Positions 18,060 through 30,566 of a stretch of DNA of 64,000 nucleotides are shown piece by piece. A program made the translations under genes and the position numbers. The notes under the pieces are model-generated. The model searched no databases. It was not told where the DNA came from and saw only the letters and a program-made list of their open reading frames with translations. Every line of letters starts with the position of its first letter. Positions within the stretch are counted from its first letter, which is position 1. Origin of the DNA: Alcaligenes faecalis (GTDB lineage Bacteria; Pseudomonadota; Gammaproteobacteria; Burkholderiales; Burkholderiaceae_B); assembly GCF_041521385.1 (NCBI RefSeq), contig NZ_CP168006.1, forward strand, positions 2,198,858 to 2,262,857, given 5' to 3'.

Positions 18060-19028
18060 ATGAGCGACTCTGCCCTTCCTGACAGCCATTGTGCTGTCGA
18101 CTCCAAAGACACCGGACACCCTGTGGAGGAACTGCTCTTGTCCGGGCTGGAGATCTCGGCCAGCCTGTTTCACTTGGGCCAGTACTGCAACCAATGGGAA
18201 AGCAGCCTGCATGGGCATCAACGGGCAGGCTTTCATGTGGTCTTGCATGGGCCGTGCTGGCTGCATATTCAGCATCAGGACGCTTGGGCCTTGCAGGCGG
18301 GTGACGCGGTGTTCTTCTTGCGGGATGTGCCCCATCGCCTAAGTTCTTCACCCACGCCGCCAGACTGGAATGTGTCAATGCGGCGGCAAACCATGCAGAA
18401 CCTGGAGCCCCAGGTACCGCAAAGCACAGGTTTGCTGTGCGGATTTCTGGATCTGGGCCGCGGCTTGAGCGAATTGCTGCTGGCAACCGTGCCGGATGTT
18501 TTATTGATTGATGGTGCTCAGGCGGATGCCGATTCGGGACGTCCCTTACTGGACTTGATTCAGGCCGAGATGCGACGTCAGCCACAAGCGAATTCCAGCC
18601 TGCTGGAGAAGCTGGTGGAGCTGTTGTTGTTCTATACCTTACGTCAGCAAATCGGACAGACACCGCCCGACGGAGCCCTGCCTGCCGGCTTGATTCATCT
18701 GGCCAGCGATTCTGCGTTTGGAGGCTTGATCGAGCAACTACTGCGTGAGCCTGCCAAAGCCTGGTCGGTTGATGATATGGCTGCCTATCTGAACATGTCG
18801 CGCGCTGCTTTTCACCGCCGCTTTACCTTGCTGTGCGGGATGGCACCGGCTCAGGTCCTATTGCAACTACGCATGCAGTTGGCCAAACGTCAGTTGGAAC
18901 AAGGGCTGACCATGGAACAGATTGCCGAGCGTATCGGTTATAGCTCCGCCGCCGCCTTCAGTGCTGCTTTCAGGCGCAGTGTGGGTGTCAGCCCGGCTCA
19001 GTGGCGCAAACAGGAAACACGTGGCTAA
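18060..19028 (+). CDS. AraC-family transcriptional regulator with N-terminal cupin
   Basis: The ATG at 18060 gives 322 residues and the start MSDSALPDSHCAV; an in-frame TTG at 17976 is less likely. No strong ribosome-binding site precedes it. The N-terminal half is an AraC-binding cupin (HVVLHGPCWLHIQHQDAW, AGDAVFFLRDVPHRL). The C-terminal 100 residues carry two helix-turn-helix units: WSVDDMAAYLNMSRAAFHRRF and MEQIAERIGYSSAAAFSAAFRR. It is divergently transcribed from the AhpD-like/ABC operon, with 129 bases between the starts, and so is the likely regulator of that operon. The effector is unknown. Confidence 0.88.
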   Translation: MSDSALPDSHCAVDSKDTGHPVEELLLSGLEISASLFHLGQYCNQWESSLHGHQRAGFHVVLHGPCWLHIQHQDAWALQAGDAVFFLRDVPHRLSSSPTPPDWNVSMRRQTMQNLEPQVPQSTGLLCGFLDLGRGLSELLLATVPDVLLIDGAQADADSGRPLLDLIQAEMRRQPQANSSLLEKLVELLLFYTLRQQIGQTPPDGALPAGLIHLASDSAFGGLIEQLLREPAKAWSVDDMAAYLNMSRAAFHRRFTLLCGMAPAQVLLQLRMQLAKRQLEQGLTMEQIAERIGYSSAAAFSAAFRRSVGVSPAQWRKQETRG

Positions 19029-19253
19029 GTCGCCAGTATGCAGCTTACGACTGCAACCAGCCTCTGTTTTCAGCCCAATCATCCATGCAGGTCAATGGCC
19101 CGAGCCATAAGGAATAGCCGATGTCCTGTGCAAGATGCCATAAAACCCACAGGCCACTCGGAATCAAACGCTAATTCCAACCTTCAGGCTGGCAACAGGC
19201 ACACCATACGATCACTCTTCTGTTCCAGTGCCCGTCGATAAACAAGCGGACAT
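19029..19253. other. Non-coding spacer between the AraC gene and the rpsQ terminator
   Basis: About 225 bases without a recognisable gene. I see no tRNA, repeat or ribosomal gene here. The genes that usually follow rpsQ (rplN-rplX-rplE of the spc operon) are absent. Confidence 0.6.
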
Positions 19254-19290
19254 AAAAAAACCCCGATCTGTAAATAGATCGGGGTTTTTT
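19254..19290. terminator. Bidirectional terminator between rpsQ and the AraC gene
   Basis: A perfect 9-bp CCCCGATCT / AGATCGGGG stem (19261-19269 and 19276-19284) has a 6-base loop and is flanked by A7 on the left and T6 on the right. It can end both the leftward ribosomal operon and the rightward AraC transcript. Confidence 0.92.
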
Positions 19291-19333
19291 GACCTACCAG
19301 AGCCAGGCCGAAGCCTGACATCTGAGCAAGCGT

Positions 19334-19609
19334 TTAGATCACGCGGGCTGCTTCGATCAGACGCACAACAGTCCAGGACTTGCTGCGGCTGATAGGACGG
19401 CCTTCGGAAATCTCAACGGTATCGCCTTCGTTGTACTGGTTGGTCTCGTCATGCGCTTTGTATTTATTGGAGCGCACGATGATCTTGCCATACAAAGGAT
19501 GTTTAACGCGGCGTTCAACCAGAACGACGACAGTTTTGTCCATCTTGTTGCTGACAACTTGACCAATCAGGGTACGTTGACGTTTTTCGGTAGTTTGAGT
19601 TTCGCTCAT
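19334..19609 (-). CDS. rpsQ: 30S ribosomal protein S17
   Basis: The ATG at 19609 gives 91 residues starting [19 protein letters not shown], with the family motif [24 protein letters not shown] longer frame would run into rpmC and is rejected. S17 binds 16S rRNA early in 30S assembly. It is the last gene of this ribosomal cluster and lies two bases after rpmC. A terminator follows about 45 bases downstream, which separates it from any spc operon. Confidence 0.97.
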
Positions 19610-19610
19610 C

Positions 19611-19802
19611 TTACTTTCCTGCGGTCTCAGCCATGACAGTACGGACGCGCGCGATGTCGCGACGTACTTTGCCCAATTGGCTGGTGTTGGAAAGCTGTTG
19701 AGTAGCACGCTGCATGCGCAGGTTAAATTGTGCTTTCAACAGGCTCTCGAGCTCTTTTTGGAGCTCGGCGGCATCTTTGGTACGGAGTTCGCTGGCTTTC
19801 AT
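19611..19802 (-). CDS. rpmC: 50S ribosomal protein L29
   Basis: A 63-residue protein starting [22 protein letters not shown], the two-helix pattern of L29, with [14 protein letters not shown] in the middle. It lies near the peptide exit tunnel in the 50S subunit. It is in its usual place between rplP and rpsQ, separated by 9 and 1 bases. Confidence 0.97.
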
Positions 19803-19811
19803 GACGTCTCC

Positions 19812-20228
19812 TTAAGCACCGATCTGACGCGTTACGAACGTCGTCGAGATAGGCAGCTTGGCAGCGGCCAGACGGAATGCTTCGCGTGCCAGCTCTTCGC
19901 TAACACCTTCCATTTCGTACAGGACCTTGCCTGGTTGAATCTCAGCGACCCAGAACTCTGGATTACCCTTACCGTTACCCATACGAACTTCGGCAGGTTT
20001 CTGCGAAATTGGCTTATCGGGGAAGATACGGATCCAGATGCGGCCACCACGTTTGATGTGACGGTTAATTGCACGACGTGCTGCTTCGATCTGGCGAGCA
20101 GTCAGACGGCCACGGTCAGTGGCTTTCAGACCAAATTCGCCAAACGAAACTTGCGCACCGCGAGTTGCCAGACCGGTGTTACGGCCTTTGTGCTCTTTGC
20201 GGTACTTTCTGCGAGAAGGTTGCAGCAT
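19812..20228 (-). CDS. rplP: 50S ribosomal protein L16
   Basis: A 138-residue protein with the standard N-terminus [17 protein letters not shown] and conserved segments [24 protein letters not shown] and [23 protein letters not shown]16 organises the A-site region of 23S rRNA. It lies three bases after rpsC, in conserved order. Confidence 0.98.
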
Positions 20229-20231
20229 GTT

Positions 20232-21005
20232 TTATTCTCCTTCGGACGCAGCAGGAGCAGCGTCTTTACGAGGACCGCGGCCACGACCACCTGGACGGCG
20301 GTTTTCAGGGCGGTCACCACGTGGACGACGTGGGCGGCGCTCTTCAGGGGCTACGGTGTCAACAGGCATTTCGCCGTTAGGCAGCATGTCGCCCTTGTAG
20401 ACCCAGACCTTGATACCGATGATCCCGTACGTCGTGTGCGCTTCGGAAGTACCGTAATCGATGTTAGCGCGCAGGGTGTGCAGAGGCACACGGCCTTCGC
20501 GGTACCATTCGGTACGAGCGATTTCGATGCCGTTCAAGCGACCCGAGCTCATGATCTTGATGCCTTGGGCACCCAGACGCATGGCGTTTTGCATGGAACG
20601 CTTCATCGCACGACGGAACATGATGCGCTTTTCCAATTGCTGAGCAATGGAGTCGGCGATCAGTTGAGCGTCGGTTTCAGGTTTGCGAATTTCTTCGATG
20701 TTAACGTGCACGGGCACGCCCAACAGGCGCTGCAGGTCAGCCTTCAGGCTTTCGATATCCTCGCCACGCTTGCCGATCACTACACCAGGACGAGCCGAGT
20801 AAATAGTGATACGAGCATTCTTGGCAGGACGTTCGATGACCACACGGCCAACGGACGCGCTTTTCAGCTTGCGTTTCAGGTATTCGCGCACACGGATGTC
20901 GTCAGCCAACATCGTACCGAACTCAGCACCGTCAGCGTACCAACGCGAGCTCCAGTTACGGTTAACAGCCAGGCGGAACCCAATTGGGTGGATTTTCTGT
21001 CCCAT
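20232..21005 (-). CDS. rpsC: 30S ribosomal protein S3
   Basis: A 257-residue protein starting [20 protein letters not shown]. It has the KH domain ([17 protein letters not shown]) and the C-terminal S3 domain ([31 protein letters not shown] pattern). It is about 24 residues longer than E. coli S3 (233). The extra residues form an Arg/Pro/Gly-rich tail ([18 protein letters not shown] and on), a feature I regard as lineage-specific. It lies between rplV and rplP in the normal order. Confidence 0.98.
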
Positions 21006-21014
21006 TGTGACTCC

Positions 21015-21344
21015 TTAAGCGCCGACTTTGACCACAATGTGGCAAGTCTGCTTCTCAATACGGTTACCGCGGCCTTTGGCTCGTGCAGAAAAACGCTTCA
21101 ACGACTGAGCCTTGTCCACGTAAATGGAGGTGACTTTCAGTTCGTCGATGTCGGCGCCGTCATTGTGCTCAGCGTTGGCAATCGCCGATTCCAGAGCTTT
21201 CTTGATGATGCCAGCGGCTTTCTTGGGAGTGAAAGTCAGCGTATTCAGAGCGTGAGCGACGGACTTGCCGCGGACCATGTCCGCAACCAGACGTGCTTTT
21301 TGCGCCGAAATATGGACTCCACGAATAATTGCTGTAGTTTCCAT
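21015..21344 (-). CDS. rplV: 50S ribosomal protein L22
   Basis: The start is ATG 21344 (109 residues, [27 protein letters not shown]), chosen over a GTG one codon upstream because GGAG stands seven bases before the ATG. The long hairpin that lines the peptide tunnel and the C-terminal [19 protein letters not shown] are present. It lies three bases after rpsS. Confidence 0.97.
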
Positions 21345-21347
21345 CAC

Positions 21348-21623
21348 TTATCTCCGGGCCTTTTTGTCCGCAGCGTGACCCTTGAAAGTACGGGTCAAAG
21401 CGAACTCGCCGAGCTTGTGGCCAACCATGTTCTCGTTGATGTAAACGGGAATGTGTTGACGGCCATTGTGAACGGCAATCGTCAGCCCAATGAACTCGGG
21501 CAGGATGGTAGAGCGGCGCGACCAGGTTTTGATTGGTCGCTTGTCGTTACCCACAACGGCTGCGTCAACCTTTTTGATCAGGTGAGCATCAACGAATGGG
21601 CCTTTTTTAATCGAACGTGACAT
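21348..21623 (-). CDS. rpsS: 30S ribosomal protein S19
   Basis: A 91-residue protein beginning [18 protein letters not shown], with [20 protein letters not shown] and the C-terminal [18 protein letters not shown]. It sits in the 30S head, paired with S13. It follows rplB by 12 bases. Confidence 0.98.
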
Positions 21624-21635
21624 AGTGTTCGCCCC

Positions 21636-22463
21636 TTACTTGCGCTTACGGCGCGAAACAATCATGTTGTCTGTGCGCTTGTTACGACGGGTGCGGTAGC
21701 CCTTGGCAGGCGTACCCCATGGGCTGACTGGCTCACGGCCTTCACCCGTACGACCTTCACCACCACCGTGGGGGTGATCGACTGGGTTCATCGCCACACC
21801 GCGAACGGTAGGACGAATACCACGCCAGCGAACAGCACCGGCTTTACCGATTTGACGCAGGCTGTGATCGTGGTTGCTGACTTCGCCAATCGTGGCGCGG
21901 CAGTCGATGTGAATGCGGCGAACTTCACCGGAACGCAGACGCACTTGAGCGTACGTGCCTTCACGAGCCAGCAACACAGCGGAACCACCAGCGGAACGAG
22001 CGATCTGAGCACCCTTACCCGGCATCATCTCGATGCAGTGAATGGTTTGACCCACAGGAATGTTGCGGATGGGCAAAGTGTTGCCGGAACGGATAGGAGC
22101 TTCCGCGCCAGAGACAACTGTTGCACCCACTTCCAGACCACGAGGGGCGATGATGTAACGACGTTCGCCGTCTGCGTAACACACCAATGCGATGTGAGCA
22201 CTGCGGTTAGGGTCGTATTCCAGACGTTCTACTTTCGCAGGAATACCGTCTTTGTTGCGACGGAAGTCGACAATACGGTAGTGCTGCTTGTGACCGCCGC
22301 CACGGTGACGAACCGTGATGTGACCGTTGTTGTTACGGCCAGCACTGCTGGATTTCTTTTCCAGCAAAGCCGCGTAAGGAGCGCCTTTGTGCAGTTCAGG
22401 GTGAACTACTTTGATCATGCCACGGCGACCTGGCGACGTTGGTTTTACTTTTACCAATGCCAT
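21636..22463 (-). CDS. rplB: 50S ribosomal protein L2
   Basis: A 275-residue protein with the expected domains. The N-terminal RNA-binding part includes [20 protein letters not shown], and the C-terminal SH3-like part includes [17 protein letters not shown], which carries the invariant histidine near the peptidyl-transferase centre. It is required for subunit association and peptidyl transfer. It lies one base after rplW. Confidence 0.98.
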
Positions 22464-22464
22464 A

Positions 22465-22761
22465 TTAGTTCACCTCAGAAAAGTCGAGTTCCTGACCGGG
22501 CTTGAGCGAGACATATGCCTTGCGCACACTGCGGCGGCGACCCATGAAACGGCCAAAGCGCTTTTCTTTGCCCTTCTGATTGAGCACCTGCACCGACTCA
22601 ACTTCTACCTTGAACAGCAGTTCAATGGCAGCTTTGATTTCAGGCTTGGTCGCATCAGGAGCGACGCGGAAAGCGATTTGCTGATTTTTTTCGGCAACGT
22701 ACGTGGCTTTTTCAGTCACGACAGGAGCCAGAATGACTTGCAATAGACGTTCGGCGTTCAT
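22465..22761 (-). CDS. rplW: 50S ribosomal protein L23
   Basis: A 98-residue protein starting [20 protein letters not shown], with [21 protein letters not shown]23 lies at the tunnel exit and docks the signal recognition particle and trigger factor. Its start overlaps the rplD stop by 4 bases. Confidence 0.97.
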
Positions 22762-23378
22762 CCCAACATCTCCTCAAACTGAGCGACAGCCGCTTTGGTG
22801 ACCAACACTTTTTTGTAGTGGATCAGGGACAGCGGGTCGGCGTAGCGTGGTTCAACCACAGCAACGTGAGGCAGGTTACGCGTAGCCAGGTACACGTTCT
22901 CGTCCAACGCGTCGGTGATGATCAGCACGGATTCCAGGCCCAGGTCTTTCAGCTTGTTGGCTGCCAGACGGGTCTTGGGTGCTTCCAGAGTGAAGGAATC
23001 AACAACCAACAGACGCTCGTCACGGACCAACTGAGACAGAATCGCGCTGATACCGGCGCGGTACATCTTCTTGTTGACCTTGTGTGCGTAGTTTTCTTCA
23101 CCGGTGTTGGGGAATGCACGACCGCCTCCACGCCACACGGGCGAGGATGTCATACCAGCACGAGCGCGGCCGGTGCCTTTCTGGCGCCATGGCTTCTTGG
23201 TGCTGTGGTTGACTTCGGCACGAGTCAATTGCTTGCTGTTACCGCTGCGAGCATTGGCTTGGTATGCAACAACGATCTGGTGAACCAGAGCTTCGTTGAA
23301 TTCACGACCGAAAACGGTTTCGTTGGCCTGCAATGTGGCTGCAGCTTGGCCTTGTTCGTTCAGGAGCTTCAGTTCCAT
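22758..23378 (-). CDS. rplD: 50S ribosomal protein L4
   Basis: A 206-residue protein starting [16 protein letters not shown] and carrying the conserved loop [25 protein letters not shown] that extends into the peptide tunnel (its KGTGRARAG core is diagnostic). In E. coli L4 also represses its own S10 operon by binding the leader upstream of rpsJ. Here rpsJ is separated from this gene, so that control would have to act at a different leader. It lies three bases after rplC. Confidence 0.98.
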
Positions 23379-23381
23379 GGA

Positions 23382-24056
23382 TTAGGCTCCTTTCACAGCA
23401 GGGCGCACAACGATATTGGCATTCTTGTGACCTGGGACAGCGCCCCGGACCAGCAACAAGCCACGCTCGGCGTCGACGCGGATCACGTCAAGATTCTGAA
23501 CCGTACGGGTAACGTCACCCATATGGCCCGACATTTTTTTACCTTTGAACACACGGCCTGGATCCTGGGCTTGACCAATGGAACCGGGTACGCGGTGCGA
23601 GCGCGAGTTACCGTGGCTGTTACGCTGGCCGCCAAAATTGTGGCGTTTGATGGTACCGGCAAAGCCTTTACCGATCGTGGTGCCCGTAACGTCAACCTTC
23701 TGACCCGCTTCGAAAATGCTTTCCACAGCCACTACGGAACCGGCGGAAAGCTCGGCGATAGCAGCGGGGTCGAGGCGGAATTCTTTCAGGATGCTGCCAG
23801 CTTCAACGCCAGCTTTTGCATAGTGCCCTGCCTGGGGCTTGGTAACGCGTGTTGCACGACGGGTGCCAAAGGCAACCTGTACAGCGGCGTAACCGTCAAC
23901 TGCGGGCGTCTTGACCTGGGTGATGCGGTTGTTGGACACGTCCAGCACGGTCACAGGGATGGACTCGCCTTCCTCTGTAAACACACGGGTCATGCCAACT
24001 TTACGCCCAACAAGGCCCAGCCGCCACGCGGCAGGCGTAGGTGTCGAGTTCGACAT
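23382..24056 (-). CDS. rplC: 50S ribosomal protein L3
   Basis: The start is set at ATG 24056 (224 residues, [26 protein letters not shown]) because GGAG at 24063-24066 lies six bases upstream; an upstream GTG/ATG option at 24068 would lie on that site. The N-terminus is about 14 residues longer than E. coli L3, which starts at the [11 protein letters not shown] motif. The methylation-site motif [21 protein letters not shown] is present. The gene is first in its transcription unit here, with its own promoter and leader, instead of following rpsJ. Confidence 0.96.
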
Positions 24057-24150
24057 CGTTTTCTCCATTCCTGACTACGATTGGTCAGGGCTAACTGAGA
24101 GTACACGCAATGATTTGCGCGACGACCATAGCCAAAACTTTTTGGCTAAG
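24057..24150 (-). promoter_or_regulatory. rplC leader with two hairpins
   Basis: The predicted untranslated leader is about 95 bases. A near-perfect AGCCAAAA / TTTTGGCT stem (24130-24147) stands at its very 5' end. A second stem CCTGAC / GTCAGG (24070-24075 with 24084-24089) ends three bases upstream of the Shine-Dalgarno GGAG at 24063-24066. These could stabilise the transcript or gate translation. Whether L4 or L3 binds here is unknown. Confidence 0.55.
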
Positions 24151-24156
24151 CTAGTA

Positions 24157-24186
24157 AATATAGCACGCGGCTGTAAAGCCAAGCAA
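24157..24186 (-). promoter_or_regulatory. Candidate extended -10 promoter for the rplC-rpsQ operon
   Basis: Read on the minus strand, a TTGCTT -35 (24181-24186) is followed after 18 bases by TATATT (24157-24162), preceded by TGC as an extended -10. The start point would be near 24150, just upstream of the first leader hairpin. This supplies the promoter that rplC needs once it is cut off from rpsJ. Confidence 0.6.
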
Positions 24187-24296
24187 GATTTACTGCAAAA
24201 ATTGGCCCTAAACTGCTTGATTGACAACAGTTTTTTTGAATTCGGGGTGCTTGGCTACACAGTCTGAATCAGAAAAATTGATCTGCCGCGCATTTT

Positions 24297-25139
24297 CTAT
24301 TGGTGCGCCTTATTGACAAAACGAGCCACGTATTCGTTCACCGGTTCATCACGAATTTGAGCCGGAGTACCGCTTTGTTCCACCCTGCCCTCACGCAGCA
24401 CCACAATGTGCTGACCCAGCCGCAAAGCCTCATCAATATCGTGCGTAATAAAAATGATGGTTTTGTTCAGGCTGCTTTGCAGGCGTAGCAGCTCGTCCTG
24501 CATCTCGTAACGAATCAAAGGGTCCAGAGCCGAGAAGGCCTCATCCATCAGCAGGATGTCGGCATCAACGGCCAAGGCTCGGGCCAGACCAACCCGTTGC
24601 TGCATCCCGCCTGACAATTCATCGGGGTAGTTATCGGCATAGTCCTGCAGGCCCACGCGCTCCAGCCATTGCCGAGCCTGCTCTCTGGCTTGCATGCGTT
24701 TATCACCTCGCACTTCCAGGCCAAAGGCGACGTTCTCGACCACTGTTAAATGGGGCAACAGGCCAAAAGCCTGAAAGACCATGCTGATTCCATAGCGGCG
24801 GAACTGTCGCAAACTGGCCATGTCCAGCTGCAATATGTCCTGCCCATCCACCAACACCTGCCCGGCACTGGGATCGATCAAACGGTTGATGTGACGCACT
24901 AGCGTGGATTTACCCGAACCGGATAAGCCCATGACGCAGGATATCTGCTGCGCGGGAAAGCAGGCATTCACACCGGCCAGCCCCACGATGCAGTCCGTCT
25001 GCTTTTGCACCGCCAACTTGTCGGCTCCCTGCTTCAACAAGTCCACGGCTTCGGTCGCCCGGTTGCCAAAGACCTTATAGACGTCTCGCAGCTCTATCTT
25101 GCAGACCTGATCACCCGAGCTAGTAGATAGGGTATTCAT
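24297..25139 (-). CDS. Glycine betaine/proline-type ABC transporter ATPase (ProV/OpuAA-like)
   Basis: A 280-residue ATPase with a ProV-type N-terminus (VYKVFGNRATEAVDLLKQG). Walker A is GLSGSGKST, the signature LSGGMQQRVGLARALAVD, Walker B ILLMDEAFSALDP and the H-loop ITHDIDEAL. It stops soon after the ATPase core (QSGTPAQIRDEPVNEYVARFV), so it lacks the two CBS domains that sense ionic strength in full-length ProV (400 residues) and OpuA. The start overlaps the upstream permease gene by 4 bases. No terminator is evident after it, so some read-through into rplC is possible. Substrate: a quaternary amine such as betaine, choline or carnitine, by family. Confidence 0.9.
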   Translation of the reverse strand: MNTLSTSSGDQVCKIELRDVYKVFGNRATEAVDLLKQGADKLAVQKQTDCIVGLAGVNACFPAQQISCVMGLSGSGKSTLVRHINRLIDPSAGQVLVDGQDILQLDMASLRQFRRYGISMVFQAFGLLPHLTVVENVAFGLEVRGDKRMQAREQARQWLERVGLQDYADNYPDELSGGMQQRVGLARALAVDADILLMDEAFSALDPLIRYEMQDELLRLQSSLNKTIIFITHDIDEALRLGQHIVVLREGRVEQSGTPAQIRDEPVNEYVARFVNKAHQ

Positions 25140-27067
25140 GCTTGCCTCCTGACCTTGCGACGATGACGCTGAGAACGACCAAAGGATTGAGAAATCCGGT
25201 CAATAACAATAGCGAGGATCACAATCGCGACCCCTGCCTGCAAACCACGCCCTATATCCAGTGTCTGAATGCCGGCCAACACATCCTCACCCAAGCCTTG
25301 AGCACCAATCATGGAAGCCACCACCACCATGGACAGCGCCATCATGGTGGTTTGATTAATGCCCGCCATAATGCTGGGACGCGCCAAGGGCAAGGTAACC
25401 TTCATCAGCATTTGCCACCGCGTGACTCCGTAGGCCTGCGCCGCCTCCATCACATGCTTGTCCACCTGTTGCAAGCCCAAACTGGTCAGGCGAATCAAGG
25501 GTGGAACAGCATAGACAACGGTAGCAAGAACCGCAGGTACTTTACCCAGACCGAACAGCATCAGCACCGGAATCAGGTACACAAAGCTGGGCATGGTTTG
25601 CATCACATCCAGCACCGGCGTCAGCACTTTTCTGAGTAGACGGCTGCGGGCACTAAGAATACCCACCGGGACACCAATCAGGACAGAGAAGACAGTCGCC
25701 ACCAACACCAGGGTAAAGGTTTGCATCAACTTATCCCACAAGCCCATGGCTCCGATCAGATACAAGCCCCCCGCATAGAGCAGTACGGGCAGAAAACGAC
25801 GCTGCCCCCACCAGGCCAACAAGCCCGTCAACACCAGGATGGCCCATGCGGGCACCTGCTGCAACACACGCTCTACCGGCAAGATGGCATACGTCAGAAT
25901 CCACGAACTGATCTGGCGAAAGCCTGTCCCCCAGTCTTGCACGGCAACCAACAACTGACGGTTCACCCAATCTGCGGCTGACCACTCCGGGAAAAAACGG
26001 GACTGTACGGCGACTGGCTTTCCTACTTCATCTTCCAAGGCGGCCTGCAAGCGATCTGCCTGGGCAAGCGGCATCCACTGGCGCCATTGCTCTTCGTTTT
26101 CTTTCAGGAACTTCTGTACCTGCGTGCTGGCGTTTTGCCCACCCTCGGTCATGCCCAAAATGATCTCATTCATCTGCCCAGGCTCTAGCTGGATCTTCTC
26201 AAACAAAGCCACCAGCTCGGGGTGAGACTCCACGAAGGGAGTAGAAGCTGCCACGCCTATATTCGCCACGATGAAATCCGTAGGACAAATCTCACCCTTG
26301 CCTGAAACAGCCGCCTTCCAGCAGCTTTCATTGAAAGGGGCACTGGCCAACTTCTTGAAGGAGTATTTGGCCATCAAGCCAGCAGGTTGCCAGTAATAGA
26401 ACAGAATTGGCACACGCCTGTCATAGGCGGCACTGATTGCTGCATCCAGAGCTGCGCCAGTACCAGGTCGGAAGTTTTGATAGTGTTCGCCCAGGCCATA
26501 GAGATCAAACAGGCGGCTATTGAAGGTTTCACATACCCAGCCGGACGGACAGTTATAGAAGCGGCCCTTATCAGGTTGCTCCGGGTCCCTAAATACGGCG
26601 GCGTAGCGTTTCAAATCCTGAACTGTCTGCAAATTCGGGGCAATTGGCTTGACGCCCTTATCCAGATCGCCATCGACGACATAATCCGGCACATACCAGC
26701 CCTGCTCGGCCCCGCCTTTCAAGGTATTGCCCAGCACCTGAACCTGACCGGCTTCAATGGCTTTTTCAATGATCTCAGTACGTCCTGACCAGATCTCGCC
26801 AATTACCTGAATATCGTTTTGAGCCAGCGCACTTTCCAGAGCGGCTGAGGAGCCTGGCACCCGTTCGGTCTTGCAACCGTAGGCCTTCTCCAGAATCTGC
26901 TGATACAGCTCGGTGCTAAACGCGGCACTCTCCCAGCTCAGATCGGCCAAACGTACGGATTTACCGTCTGCACACACTTGTGCGGATGCGCTAGCCCCCC
27001 ATAGGCATAGCCACAAGCCCATGAAATACCACAAGGCCAGATACGGCTTATTTCTGTGCATTCTCAT
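25136..27067 (-). CDS. Fused substrate-binding protein-permease of a glycine betaine-type ABC transporter
   Basis: A 643-residue fusion. A signal sequence or anchor ends at ...GASASAQV near residue 30. An OpuAC/ProX-like binding domain follows (LADLSWESAAFSTELYQQILEKAYG at its start; YYWQPAGLMAKY contributes aromatic residues that can form a cation-pi cage). From about residue 410 the chain becomes a ProW-like permease with several membrane segments and the EAA loop (EAAQAYGVTRWQMLMKVTLP). The binding domain is N-terminal, the reverse of Gram-positive OpuABC-type permease-first fusions. The start ATG 27067 has GGAGG six bases upstream. It is cotranscribed with the ATPase gene and sits between rpsJ and rplC. 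Confidence 0.9.
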   Translation of the reverse strand: MRMHRNKPYLALWYFMGLWLCLWGASASAQVCADGKSVRLADLSWESAAFSTELYQQILEKAYGCKTERVPGSSAALESALAQNDIQVIGEIWSGRTEIIEKAIEAGQVQVLGNTLKGGAEQGWYVPDYVVDGDLDKGVKPIAPNLQTVQDLKRYAAVFRDPEQPDKGRFYNCPSGWVCETFNSRLFDLYGLGEHYQNFRPGTGAALDAAISAAYDRRVPILFYYWQPAGLMAKYSFKKLASAPFNESCWKAAVSGKGEICPTDFIVANIGVAASTPFVESHPELVALFEKIQLEPGQMNEIILGMTEGGQNASTQVQKFLKENEEQWRQWMPLAQADRLQAALEDEVGKPVAVQSRFFPEWSAADWVNRQLLVAVQDWGTGFRQISSWILTYAILPVERVLQQVPAWAILVLTGLLAWWGQRRFLPVLLYAGGLYLIGAMGLWDKLMQTFTLVLVATVFSVLIGVPVGILSARSRLLRKVLTPVLDVMQTMPSFVYLIPVLMLFGLGKVPAVLATVVYAVPPLIRLTSLGLQQVDKHVMEAAQAYGVTRWQMLMKVTLPLARPSIMAGINQTTMMALSMVVVASMIGAQGLGEDVLAGIQTLDIGRGLQAGVAIVILAIVIDRISQSFGRSQRHRRKVRRQA

Positions 27068-27150
27068 TCTTGCCCTCCTTTAACCCCGCCCATCGTCGCA
27101 TTTGTTTCCCAGTCAAAGTGTGTCTGGTCGTAAAAAACAAACTGACAGGC

Positions 27151-27180
27151 AAAAAAAAACGCCATGCAGTTGCATGGCGT
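27151..27180 (-). terminator. Strong terminator directly after rpsJ
   Basis: On the minus strand a perfect 10-bp ACGCCATGCA / TGCATGGCGT stem (27159-27168 and 27171-27180) is followed by nine T residues. It closes the tRNA-tuf-rpsJ transcript 34 bases after the rpsJ stop and isolates rpsJ from the rest of the S10 genes. Confidence 0.93.
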
Positions 27181-27213
27181 TTCTTTCGATGTATCCCGAA
27201 CAGCTAGGCAGAA

Positions 27214-27525
27214 TTACTGCAGAGCGATTTCGACGTCAACACCGGCTGGCAAATCCAGACGCATCAGAGCATCAACGGTCTTGTCGGTAGGATCGACAAT
27301 GTCCATCAAACGCTGGTGGGTACGCATTTCAAACTGATCGCGCGATGTCTTGTTGACGTGCGGCGAACGCAGAATGTCGTAGCGACGGATACGTGTTGGC
27401 AGTGGCACTGGACCACGAACAACAGCGCCGGTGCGCTTGGCGGTTTCTACGATCTCAGCAGCAGACTGATCGATCAACTTGTAATCGTAAGCCTTCAGAC
27501 GGATGCGGATTTTCTGGTTTTTCAT
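27214..27525 (-). CDS. rpsJ: 30S ribosomal protein S10 (NusE)
   Basis: A 103-residue protein, [20 protein letters not shown]..., with [25 protein letters not shown] and the C-terminal [11 protein letters not shown]10 is a 30S protein and, as NusE, part of transcription antitermination complexes. It follows tuf by 146 bases, as in many proteobacteria. Unlike them it is followed by a strong terminator and a transporter operon, not by rplC. Confidence 0.98.
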
Positions 27526-27671
27526 GGGTAATCCTAAAGAACGATATAAGTAGGGGCTTTTTACCTGGGCCTATCGATTACTCGAAGAAACTCTGACTAA
27601 AAAGCATCCCTTTTGGGGGTAGCAAAGACGCGGTGGGAAAGTTGGTACCTTCACACCGCGATCAAGGCCTA
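27526..27671 (-). other. tuf-rpsJ spacer with hairpins
   Basis: This transcribed spacer contains a CGCGGTG / CACCGCG stem (27629-27635 and 27654-27660) with an 18-base loop, then a weak imperfect hairpin and five T residues on the minus strand near 27599-27603. It could be an attenuator or the remnant of the S10 leader. It is not strong enough to call a terminator. Confidence 0.35.
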
Positions 27672-28862
27672 TTACTTGATGATTTTTGCCACCACGCCAG
27701 CGCCAACGGTACGGCCGCCTTCGCGAATCGCAAAGCGCAGACCTTCTTCCATGGCGATAGGAGCGATCAGGGACACTTTCATCGAAATGTTGTCGCCTGG
27801 CAGAACCATTTCCTTGTCTTCGGGCAGCTCGATGGTGCCGGTCACGTCAGTCGTACGGAAGTAGAACTGAGGACGGTAGCCCTTGAAGAAAGGCGTGTGA
27901 CGACCACCCTCTTCTTTGGACAGAATGTACACCTCGGCGTCAAAGTCGGTATGAGGCATGATCGAACCGGGCTTGGCCAGAACCTGACCACGCTCCACGT
28001 CTTCACGCTTGGTACCGCGCAGCAACAGACCGACGTTATCGCCAGCTTCGCCTTGGTCCAGCAGTTTGCGGAACATTTCAACGCCGGTGCAAGTGGTCTT
28101 GACCGTGTCTTTGATACCCACGATTTCGATTTCTTCGCCAACCTTGATGATGCCGCGCTCAATACGACCGGTCACAACCGTACCACGGCCAGAGATCGAG
28201 AACACGTCTTCAACAGGCATCAAGAAGGTACCGTCAACGGCACGCTCAGGCGTAGGAATGTAGTTGTCCAGCGCCTCGGCCAGAGCCAGAACAGCTTGGC
28301 TGCCCAGGGGGCCTTCGTCGCCTTCCAGAGCCAGTTTGGCCGAACCCTTGATGATCGGGGTGTCGTCGCCGGGGAAGTCGTACTTGGACAACAGCTCACG
28401 AACTTCCATTTCAACCAGTTCGATCAGCTCTTCGTCATCGACCATGTCGGCCTTGTTCAGGAACACGATGATGTAAGGAACGCCAACCTGACGGCTCAGC
28501 AAAATGTGCTCGCGAGTCTGGGGCATTGGGCCATCAGCGGCCGAGCAAACCAAAATAGCGCCGTCCATCTGGGCAGCACCCGTAATCATGTTCTTGACGT
28601 AGTCAGCGTGGCCGGGGCAGTCAACGTGTGCGTAGTGACGGTTAGGCGTCTCGTACTCAACGTGCGAGGTGCTGATGGTGATACCACGTGCTTTTTCTTC
28701 AGGGGCGTTGTCAATCTGCGAGTAATCGCGTGCTTCGCCGCCAAATGCCTTGGACAGAACCGTGCAGATTGCAGCGGTCAGAGTGGTTTTACCGTGGTCA
28801 ACGTGACCGATAGTACCGACGTTGACGTGCGGTTTAGTCCGTTCAAACTTGCCTTTAGCCAT
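27672..28862 (-). CDS. tuf: Elongation factor Tu
   Basis: A 396-residue GTPase that delivers aminoacyl-tRNA to the ribosome. The G motifs [21 protein letters not shown] and NKADMVDD are visible, and the domain 2-3 sequences ([33 protein letters not shown]) are normal. Its upstream neighbours are tRNA-Thr, tRNA-Gly and tRNA-Tyr, the usual context of tufB. Its downstream neighbour is rpsJ, the usual context of tufA. The gene therefore marks a hybrid junction. Confidence 0.98.
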
Positions 28863-28905
28863 GGCAGACTCCTGAAGGGATAGAACGATAGAGAGAAGAG
28901 AGATG

Positions 28906-28980
<75 letters not shown>

Positions 28981-29018
28981 ATTCAACTTCAGCCCAGAAT
29001 GGCCAAAGATTTTAAACC

Positions 29019-29092
29019 TGGAGCGGGTGAAGGGGATCGAACCCTCGTCTTAAGCTTGGAAGGCTTCTGCTCTACCATTGAGCTACACCCGC
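29019..29092 (-). tRNA. tRNA-Gly (anticodon TCC)
   Basis: Acceptor GCGGGTG / CACCCGC, anticodon loop CTTCCAA, T loop TTCGATC, discriminator T and encoded CCA. The outermost anticodon-stem pair is G-A, a mismatch. It lies between tRNA-Tyr and tRNA-Thr, as in other proteobacterial tRNA-tuf operons. Confidence 0.95.
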
Positions 29093-29148
29093 AGACTTTT
29101 CTTCACCCTCTCCTAAAGCCGCCTTGCTGGCTGACTTTAGAAAAGTGC

Positions 29149-29235
29149 TGGTGGTGGGAGTTGGATTCGAACCAACGTAGGCGCAGGGCCAACAGATTTA
29201 CAGTCTGCCTCCTTTAACCACTCGGACATCCCACC
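29149..29235 (-). tRNA. tRNA-Tyr (anticodon GTA)
   Basis: An 87-base class II tRNA with a long variable arm. Acceptor GGTGGGA / TCCCACC, anticodon loop CTGTAAA, T loop TTCGAAT and encoded CCA. It is the first gene of the tRNA-tuf-rpsJ transcript. Confidence 0.96.
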
Positions 29236-29250
29236 CGAAGCGAAAATCGA

Positions 29251-29279
29251 ATTATGGACATATTTTGGGAAGTCGTCAA
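29251..29279 (-). promoter_or_regulatory. Promoter of the tRNA-Tyr/Gly/Thr-tuf-rpsJ operon
   Basis: On the minus strand TTGACG (29274-29279) and CATAAT (29251-29256) are separated by exactly 17 bases. The start would fall near 29245, about ten bases before the tRNA-Tyr 5' end. This is a near-consensus sigma-70 promoter, as expected for stable RNA. Confidence 0.75.
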
Positions 29280-29561
29280 GCCTTTTAGGAAGAAAACTGA
29301 ATAATTCGATGAATTTTTTAGAAAAACCTGATTTTGAACGCTTTTCTTACTGGTTTCTTCACTGTTTCCTAAGGCTATAAGCACCGTATTTGAGTACTTT
29401 AAAAGCTGAAAAAACAGGGACAGATACGGGTAAACACATAGATTTTTCTCTGTTTTCAGCATCTATGATTGTAAACAAAAGAAACGAAACTATATTTTCC
29501 GATTTTAGTTCGACTTGCAGAAAGATGGCCCCCAGCAGCAAAACGCGAGCCATCGCAAAGA
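29280..29561. other. Non-coding spacer between the tRNA promoter and parB terminator
   Basis: An A+T-rich stretch of about 280 bases. I see no gene, repeat or further tRNA in it. It may contain upstream activating sequence for the tRNA promoter. Confidence 0.5.
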
Positions 29562-29586
29562 AAAAGCCGACCTGGGGCCGGCTTTT
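29562..29586 (-). terminator. Terminator after parB
   Basis: An AAAAGCCG / CGGCTTTT stem (29562-29569 and 29579-29586) is followed on the minus strand by a T-rich run. It closes the mnmG-rsmG-parA-parB transcript. Confidence 0.8.
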
Positions 29587-29627
29587 CTACAGCAGTCGCA
29601 TCGTCTTTCGTGTGGCACGAACTTAGC

Positions 29628-30566
29628 TTAATCGTCCGTTTGCTCCAGCAAGGACGACAAGCCCTGCTTTTCCAGCAAGGTATTCAGGTGTTCCCAACCA
29701 TGAAAAGCAATCTGTAGTTGGCCTTTATCCTTGGCACCAACCTTCAAGGTCACTTTAGTTCCCAGGTGATCAGACAGCACTTTTTCAAAACGCTGCACAT
29801 CGCCACTGCGACTGGCTTTGCTTTGAGCCTGTTTGCTAGCGGGCTCGTCATCCTCGTGCAGGGCTCGGGCAACCAGTTTTTCGGTTTCACGCACCGACAG
29901 ACGGCGGGCAATCACCTCGTTGGCCAGCATGATCTGGCGCGCGGCATCCATGGCCAGCAAGGCGCGAGCGTGCCCCATATCGATATCTCCCGCCAACAAC
30001 ATGATCTGTACTGGCTCTGCCAGGTTGATCAAGCGCAGCAGGTTACTGGTGGTCGAGCGCGAACGACCAATCGCCTGGGCAGCCTGCTCGTGGGTCAAAC
30101 CAAACTCGTCCAACAGACGTTTCACGCCTTGTGCCTCTTCCAGCGGATTCAGATCTTCACGCTGAATGTTCTCAATCAGGGCCATGATGGCGGCGTTTTC
30201 ATCCCCCACTTCGCGCACCAGGACTGGGACTTCTTCCAGCCCAGCAATTTGCGACGCGCGGAAACGGCGTTCACCGGCGATAATTTCGTATTTGCCCTTA
30301 TCCTTACCCGACAAAGGACGCACCAAAATAGGCTGCATCACACCCTGGGTGCGAATGGATTCGGCCAGCTCATTCAAGGCTCCCTCGTCCATTCGAGTAC
30401 GCGGCTGATACACCCCTGCCTTCAGCAGCTTAACGGGCAGATTGGAAGGCGGACCATCGCTCACCGCCGCTTCGCCCTTTTTCCCTATAGTTGCGATAGC
30501 GCCTGTGTCTGCGCCGAGCAAGGCATCCAAGCCTCGACCTAGACCTTTTGGTTTTCGTGTAGCCAT
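29628..30566 (-). CDS. parB: Chromosome-partitioning protein ParB (CTPase, parS-binding)
   Basis: A 312-residue ParB/Spo0J protein. The N-terminus has KGLGRGLDALLG, a typical ParA-interacting peptide. The CTP-binding motif region has ELAESIRTQGVMQPILVRP and GERRFRASQIAGLEEVPVLV with the GERR box. The helix-turn-helix recognised by parS reads LTHEQAAQAIGRSRSTTSNLLRL. It lies 29 bases after parA and acts on the four parS sites found between 31.8 and 43.5 kb. Confidence 0.97.
   Translation of the reverse strand: MATRKPKGLGRGLDALLGADTGAIATIGKKGEAAVSDGPPSNLPVKLLKAGVYQPRTRMDEGALNELAESIRTQGVMQPILVRPLSGKDKGKYEIIAGERRFRASQIAGLEEVPVLVREVGDENAAIMALIENIQREDLNPLEEAQGVKRLLDEFGLTHEQAAQAIGRSRSTTSNLLRLINLAEPVQIMLLAGDIDMGHARALLAMDAARQIMLANEVIARRLSVRETEKLVARALHEDDEPASKQAQSKASRSGDVQRFEKVLSDHLGTKVTLKVGAKDKGQLQIAFHGWEHLNTLLEKQGLSSLLEQTDD

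Follow-up and report, generated by a model that had tools for sequence, protein, structure and literature searches.

A divided S10 ribosomal protein operon in Alcaligenaceae, with variable inserts between rpsJ and rplC and a conserved hairpin before rplC

We report that the S10 operon, a textbook example both of conserved gene order and of regulation by a single protein at the operon start, is divided between rpsJ and rplC in a 64,000-nucleotide stretch of Alcaligenes faecalis DNA (contig NZ_CP168006.1, positions 2,198,858 to 2,262,857; hereafter the window), and that the same joint holds inserted genes in many members of the family. In the window the order is, all on the minus strand, tuf, rpsJ, a hairpin with a T tract, a gene for a fused binding protein-permease, an ATPase gene, and rplC to rpsQ. 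The window lies within one 4.15-Mb contig, and Alcaligenes are its closest named relatives; the family genomes surveyed below are assigned to Alcaligenaceae through the named loci that carry a relative of its permease. An earlier note on the window had described an S10 operon split by a two-gene transporter lying between rpsJ and rplC-rpsQ, and gene order together with family profile matches bears this out. It had also read the transporter as an isolated foreign interruption, which is not right; the noteworthy part is a family-wide joint and an uncharacterised hairpin before rplC. The reading that we favour, with a probability of roughly 0.7, is that the Alcaligenaceae S10 operon consists of two units. 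Specifically, (tuf-)rpsJ would be closed by an intrinsic terminator, and rplC-rpsQ would have its own promoter and leader RNA. The stretch from terminator to promoter would be a permissive joint into which metabolic gene cassettes were inserted repeatedly, and the ATP-binding cassette (ABC) transporter of the window would be one old cargo, retained in many genera. The hairpin would act as a ribosomal leader, in that an excess operon protein (L4 or L3 are guesses, made because of the Escherichia coli case and the hairpin position) would bind it beside the ribosome-binding site and block translation of rplC.

The rpsJ-rplC distance could be determined for 125 of 200 family genomes and for 133 of 144 genomes (46 of 48 families) from other families of the order. 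The 75 and 11 genomes omitted had a gene not among the matches listed, or on a different contig or strand; five of the 11 have rpsJ and rplC on separate contigs or strands, and no genome of families f40 and f45 is left. Within the family the distance varies between 149 bp and 78.5 kb and is at least 1 kb in 74/125 genomes. At least one genome with such a gap is found in 29 of 33 genera, and in the measured set four genera have only short gaps and four have both short and long ones. For the 46 other families the median gap, measured to the start of the L3 match and not to the annotated start, is 113 bp, with values below 600 bp in 127/133 genomes and of at least 1 kb in five, from three genera. 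These long gaps (G249, G319, G206, G237 and G275; 4-17 kb, three families of the order) are probably independent insertions at the same joint; G241 has a gap of 759 bp. Sequences were compared for 65 of these 125 family genomes in which rplC is whole (66 loci with the window), and further for G034, 20 family loci with a short gap and 39 loci from other families. On an rpsJ and rplC tree of the 66 loci the short/long label changes seven times, and at least four changes are forced by supported branches.

The cargo varies by genus, as judged from open reading frames (ORFs) called with a home-made codon-score caller and not with an annotation pipeline. Many genera have the betaine-type transporter, genera g23 and g40 a MetN/MetI/MetQ-like trio (named by size and order, with no family scan), and a cluster of 11 amidohydrolase ORFs comes from nine genera; one of its members has a Pfam match to Amidohydro_1, "guanine deaminase" being our reading of the sequence. 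Cargo seen in single genomes comprises a TonB receptor, hydantoinases with a TRAP transporter, a porin with an NMT1-type importer, and a decarboxylase. Among 20 cargo proteins scanned from six genomes (462 ORFs called in total), 17 have a Pfam family, all metabolic, transport or regulatory, three have no match, and integrase or transposase families are absent. In G068 and G176 (L113-L116) a 20-kb insert between rpsJ and rplC includes an ORF of approximately 3900 codons. Chromosomal insertion hot spots are an established concept, and the present joint is like them in that relatives carry different cargo between the same conserved genes. It differs from them in lying inside a ribosomal protein operon, in the lack of integrases and transposases among those 20 proteins and, in the window, in having neither a flanking repeat nor a tRNA at the joint. 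No direct repeat of at least 14 nt flanks the transporter, the sole pair found falling within the permease gene, in agreement with the earlier note, which had seen no insertion sequence element or direct repeat there.

The same transporter is found between rpsJ and rplC well beyond A. faecalis. Strong matches (E ≤ 1e-150) are present in at least 45 of the 200 family genomes (15/43 genera), which is a lower bound since divergent copies at the joint, e.g. in G013, G052, G080 and G102, miss the cut-off. Among these 45 genomes the transporter lies between rpsJ and rplC in 31 (12 genera), adjoins one of the two genes in five, and is elsewhere or unplaced in nine. A scan of named genomes gave 48 loci with a permease relative; tblastn found rpsJ on the upstream side, with rplC downstream wherever the stretch extends that far, in Alcaligenes, Pusillimonas, Pollutimonas, Paenalcaligenes, Allopusillimonas, Candidimonas and one Castellaniella metagenome-assembled genome. 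Neither gene was found within the stretches examined around the permeases of Paraburkholderia, Trinickia, Burkholderia, Lautropia, Thauera and Castellaniella S9. Among 43 permeases placed on a tree, those located at S10 group, with three label changes compared to 14.3 in shuffles, while none of 200 bootstrap trees has a single change and at least two changes are forced. This pattern would fit one early insertion event followed by loss or relocation, a single origin not being demonstrated by the tree. The permeases of Thauera Sel9 and Castellaniella S9 (L014 and L055) nest among the S10-located copies despite the lack of rpsJ and rplC in the stretches examined, and may have been transferred or have moved out of the joint.

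These data bear on two other accounts of the split. The split is no oddity of one genome: the earlier note, which had called it unusual, had itself named a family-wide arrangement with the same transporter as the observation that would contradict its reading, and comparison with Alcaligenaceae gave that observation. The patchy occurrence of the transporter would be in keeping with the recent horizontal acquisition of a foreign osmoprotectant operon by this strain or species alone. However, the location at the joint in 31 of the 45 genomes, with five more adjoining one gene, the named Alcaligenes, Pusillimonas, Pollutimonas, Paenalcaligenes and Allopusillimonas loci, and the grouping of the S10-located permeases (albeit with more than one change in every bootstrap tree) all speak against it. 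Because the arrangement is shared, a recent strain-specific insertion is refuted, and we leave it only a very slight chance. An assembly artefact around tuf repeats might be suspected, given that the second tuf of this genome (G000) is found only in pieces (C1:4124510-4125221 and 4147096-4147167), one at a contig end, and that many draft contigs begin in tuf. The pieces may reflect either an assembly fault or decay. However, tuf lies upstream of rpsJ and not between rpsJ and rplC, and the split recurs in many independent genomes, including single-contig ones, which makes an artefact hardly conceivable.

The hairpin before rplC has a 6-bp stem and the loop CAAUYGNA, lies directly before the rplC Shine-Dalgarno sequence and is present in 123/126 loci, i.e. 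87/87 in the family and 36/39 in other families. Inclusion required the loop pattern and at least four of seven pairs, a choice that favours pairing but not double changes, and the shuffles used as control keep relatedness. The 123 loci reduce to 66 distinct 30-mers; G212, G213 and G226, which lack the pattern (two are loop variants by eye), were left out. In the 66 sequences 98.7% of the cells are paired and double changes occur in all six pairs, with 83 double-change cells vs 13.4 in shuffles and a covariation score of 0.704 vs at most 0.170 when the partner is slid. Hence, the predicted secondary structure is strongly backed by covariation. A covariance model, built without sequences from other orders, gives one strong hit in the genome of the window (39.3 bits, at rplC; the runner-up has 20 bits) and hits at E ≤ 0.01 in 184/200 family genomes, all of them directly before rplC where the place of rplC is listed (127/127). 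Moreover, the rplC leader of the window folds better than its shuffles (z -4.1). No match to Rfam 15 was obtained at 24069-24296 at E ≤ 5, and a scan of 19000-29700 at the same threshold returned no S10 leader.

At its 5' border the joint begins with the strong terminator that the earlier note had placed after rpsJ, which holds up with -22.8 kcal/mol and z -5.0. A terminator-like hairpin was called after rpsJ in 62/66 family loci in a first scan, in 81/87 in a second, and in a strict scan in 54/57 long-gap and 13/21 short-gap family loci (nine of the 30 short-gap loci being outside the tested group) vs 0.3 and 0.3 in shuffles; these counts shift with the scan settings. At the other border a promoter-like motif (extended -10, then (R)GCTT-like element) precedes rplC in 73/87 family loci vs a mean of 1.9 in composition controls. 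The plain -10 form is found in 75/87 vs 19.5 (other families: 11/39 vs 3.2), and an earlier, wrongly written pattern gave 5/87 vs 7.4. The rplC unit may have promoter activity of its own. Where a young insert can be compared with an insert-free relative (G168 and G118), the alignment ends at +85 after rpsJ and resumes at +116; the terminator call ends at +87 and the -35 lies at about +165, and the break falls between the terminator end and the -35. For G100 and G120 the alignment ends at +89 and resumes at +160, with a terminator called in G100 (ending at +84) and not in G120, in which the -35 lies at about +169. In 8/70 family loci with both calls the terminator end is not before the -35.

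The earlier note had expected production of S10 to be uncoupled from that of the other ten proteins. The operon is indeed split, but the uncoupling looks older than the transporter, because the 30 short-gap family loci without the transporter already have the hairpin (30), the promoter-like element (28) and, in the second scan, a terminator-like hairpin (24). On the economical reading of these sequences, separation of rpsJ and rplC would have come first, with the space between them tolerating DNA. Since the two would already be separate units, insertions between them would cost little.

Several observations weigh against the two-unit reading or restrict its reach. The terminator is found in 17/39 other-family loci (9/39 in the strict scan vs 0.1 in shuffles), thus an insulated joint is not order-wide. 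The extended promoter motif is absent in 14/87 family loci and present in 3/39 other-family loci (vs 0.3 in controls); it was chosen by eye after viewing the sequences, and its control accounts for composition but for neither relatedness nor choice. Between the ATPase gene and rplC no terminator is listed, by a scanner of consensus type that also missed the rpsJ terminator of the window. For G171 the alignment with relatives is recovered only at about the promoter, and for G068 no earlier than 57 nt from rplC, on the 3' side of the promoter position in its relatives. The hairpin has no hit at E ≤ 0.01 in 16/200 family genomes; eight of these also lack an rplC match, and the other eight are six of the eight genomes of the small-genome genus g7 (0.7-0.8 Mb), G039 (0.9 Mb) and G158. 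Outside the order it is sporadic: among 138 genomes from other orders of the class the best hit has E below 0.02 in 13, of which 11 are at rplC, and of 15 further loci examined that have weaker hits none is at rplC. Finally, the CAAUYGNA hairpin is not found in E. coli 16S or 23S ribosomal RNA (rRNA), where five relaxed matches have two loop mismatches each; rRNA mimicry was therefore rejected as its basis. Such mimicry is frequent in ribosomal leaders but not required.

With respect to its function, the hairpin shares with ribosomal leaders a consistent place before a ribosomal protein gene and a covariation-backed structure, which would suit binding of a protein and repression of rplC. It is small and stands alone, and together with the missing rRNA likeness this would also suit a structure near the ribosome-binding site that serves stabilisation, pausing or processing and binds no protein. 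The near-constant loop on a stem of changing letters suggests instead that the loop is recognised, even if part of this constancy is built in, the loop having belonged to the search pattern. We consider the purely structural role possible, if somewhat doubtful.

The transporter itself resembles the ProU, OpuA and ChoXWV importers in that an OpuAC binding domain, a BPD_transp_1 permease and an ABC ATPase are all present, and at this level the earlier label "glycine betaine-type" stands. It goes no further in NCBIfam, where none of the 25 best models per transporter protein reaches its cut-off (choline permease 283.9 vs 363 bits, choline ATPase 337.6 vs 483.75, proV 321.7 vs 326.6). The best-scoring solved chain, over the permease part, is 7ahc. 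In contrast to these importers the binding protein forms the N-terminal part of one chain with the permease, and the ATPase is short. Specifically, the ATPase match does not reach the C-terminal third of either the ProV or the choline ATPase model (it ends at 267 of 382 in the latter), and Pfam detects no CBS domain in its 280 residues. The C-terminal CBS domains of ProU/OpuA-type ATPases are the salt sensor; the binding domain and permease expected of an osmoregulated importer of this type are present here, and a CBS-bearing ATPase was not found. Betaine, choline or a related compound are candidate substrates.

The earlier note had also envisaged growth-rate and salt control meeting in one locus, and a coupling in which transcription driven by salt stress runs on from the transporter genes into rplC would agree with the shared strand, with the retention of the transporter at the joint in 12 genera and, weakly, with the absence of a listed terminator before rplC. 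Elsewhere, however, the joint holds the MetN/I/Q-like trio, the guanine-deaminase-like gene, the TonB receptor or nothing, and the last cargo gene is antisense in 18/58 genomes with called cargo. Because the cargo differs and the ATPase match stops short of the C-terminal third of the models with no CBS domain detected, a joining of salt and growth control is unsupported, and we regard such coupling as unlikely.

The features of the locus are listed in Table 1. The start of rplC is most likely at 24056 (MSNS...) rather than at 24068, because the Shine-Dalgarno sequence would then be in place. A 12-residue N-terminal extension of L3 (24021-24056) precedes LGLVGRK, and in the other-family loci inspected rplC mostly begins at LGLVGRK itself. 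Upstream of rpsJ, tuf is preceded by tRNA-Tyr, tRNA-Gly and tRNA-Thr (whole stretch 27672-29235, minus strand), which we take to be the context of the other tuf gene, fusA being expected here instead. The same tRNA context precedes tuf in A. pakistanensis (L011), no tRNA is present within the stretch examined in L009 and L010, and in Pusillimonas (L012) a weak EF-G-like match lies upstream of tuf. These contexts suggest that the tuf copies may have recombined with each other.

Table 1. Features at and around the rpsJ-rplC joint, in window coordinates
Feature	Position	Strand	Basis or remark
tuf	27672-28862	-	upstream of rpsJ
rpsJ (S10)	27214-27525	-	TIGR01049, 153.3 bits
Intrinsic terminator 3' of rpsJ	27153-27186	-	16-nt arms 27153-27168/27171-27186, 2-nt gap, T tract
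Fused substrate-binding protein (OpuAC, PF04069) and permease (BPD_transp_1, PF00528)	25136-27067	-	Pfam
ABC transporter ATPase, ProV/ChoV-like, 280 aa	24297-25139	-	ABC_tran; Pfam and NCBIfam
Candidate rplC promoter	24157-24186	-	TTGCTT 24181-24186, 18 nt, extended -10 TGC-TATATT (-10 at 24157-24162); read from sequence
Predicted 5' hairpin of rplC leader	24125-24151	-	leader fold
Conserved rplC leader hairpin, 6-bp stem	24070-24089	-	loop CAAUCGUA at 24076-24083
rplC Shine-Dalgarno GGAG	24063-24066	-	3 nt past the conserved hairpin; sequence
rplC (L3)	23382-24056	-	TIGR03625; start in ORF list 24068
rplD, rplW, rplB, rpsS, rplV, rpsC, rplP, rpmC, rpsQ	19334-23378	-	names assigned by reading translations

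In E. coli a leader RNA controls the S10 operon (PMC10931766). The control is exerted by L4, and the leader is the 5' untranslated region of the operon before rpsJ. The present proposal has leader RNA control of an S10 ribosomal operon in common with it and differs in place, the hairpin lying 3' of rpsJ and before rplC; in E. coli K-12 these two genes are 32 nt apart and the hairpin is absent. Conserved structures before ribosomal protein genes were inferred by covariation by Eckert and Weinberg 2020 (PMC7247131), and the rplC hairpin is likewise covariation-backed and placed before such a gene. The available portion of their Table 1 has rplC only under the Archaeoglobi L4 leader, and "Betaproteobacteria" and "Burkholderiales" are absent from the main text as available to us. 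Among open-licence papers, judged by title and start of abstract, none was found that treats a divided S10 operon in Alcaligenaceae or, for Burkholderiales, a leader before rplC.

We tentatively suggest, at somewhat less than even odds, that the CAAUYGNA hairpin represents a new class of ribosomal leader which controls the Burkholderiales S10 operon before rplC, and that by freeing rpsJ it made the middle of the operon one of several landing sites for metabolic genes in the family. The hairpin is a small, concrete target in an order for which those papers gave no description of S10 control. Moreover, a family with a divided S10 operon and inserts of up to tens of kb would allow a test of whether the coupling of S10 to the other proteins matters.

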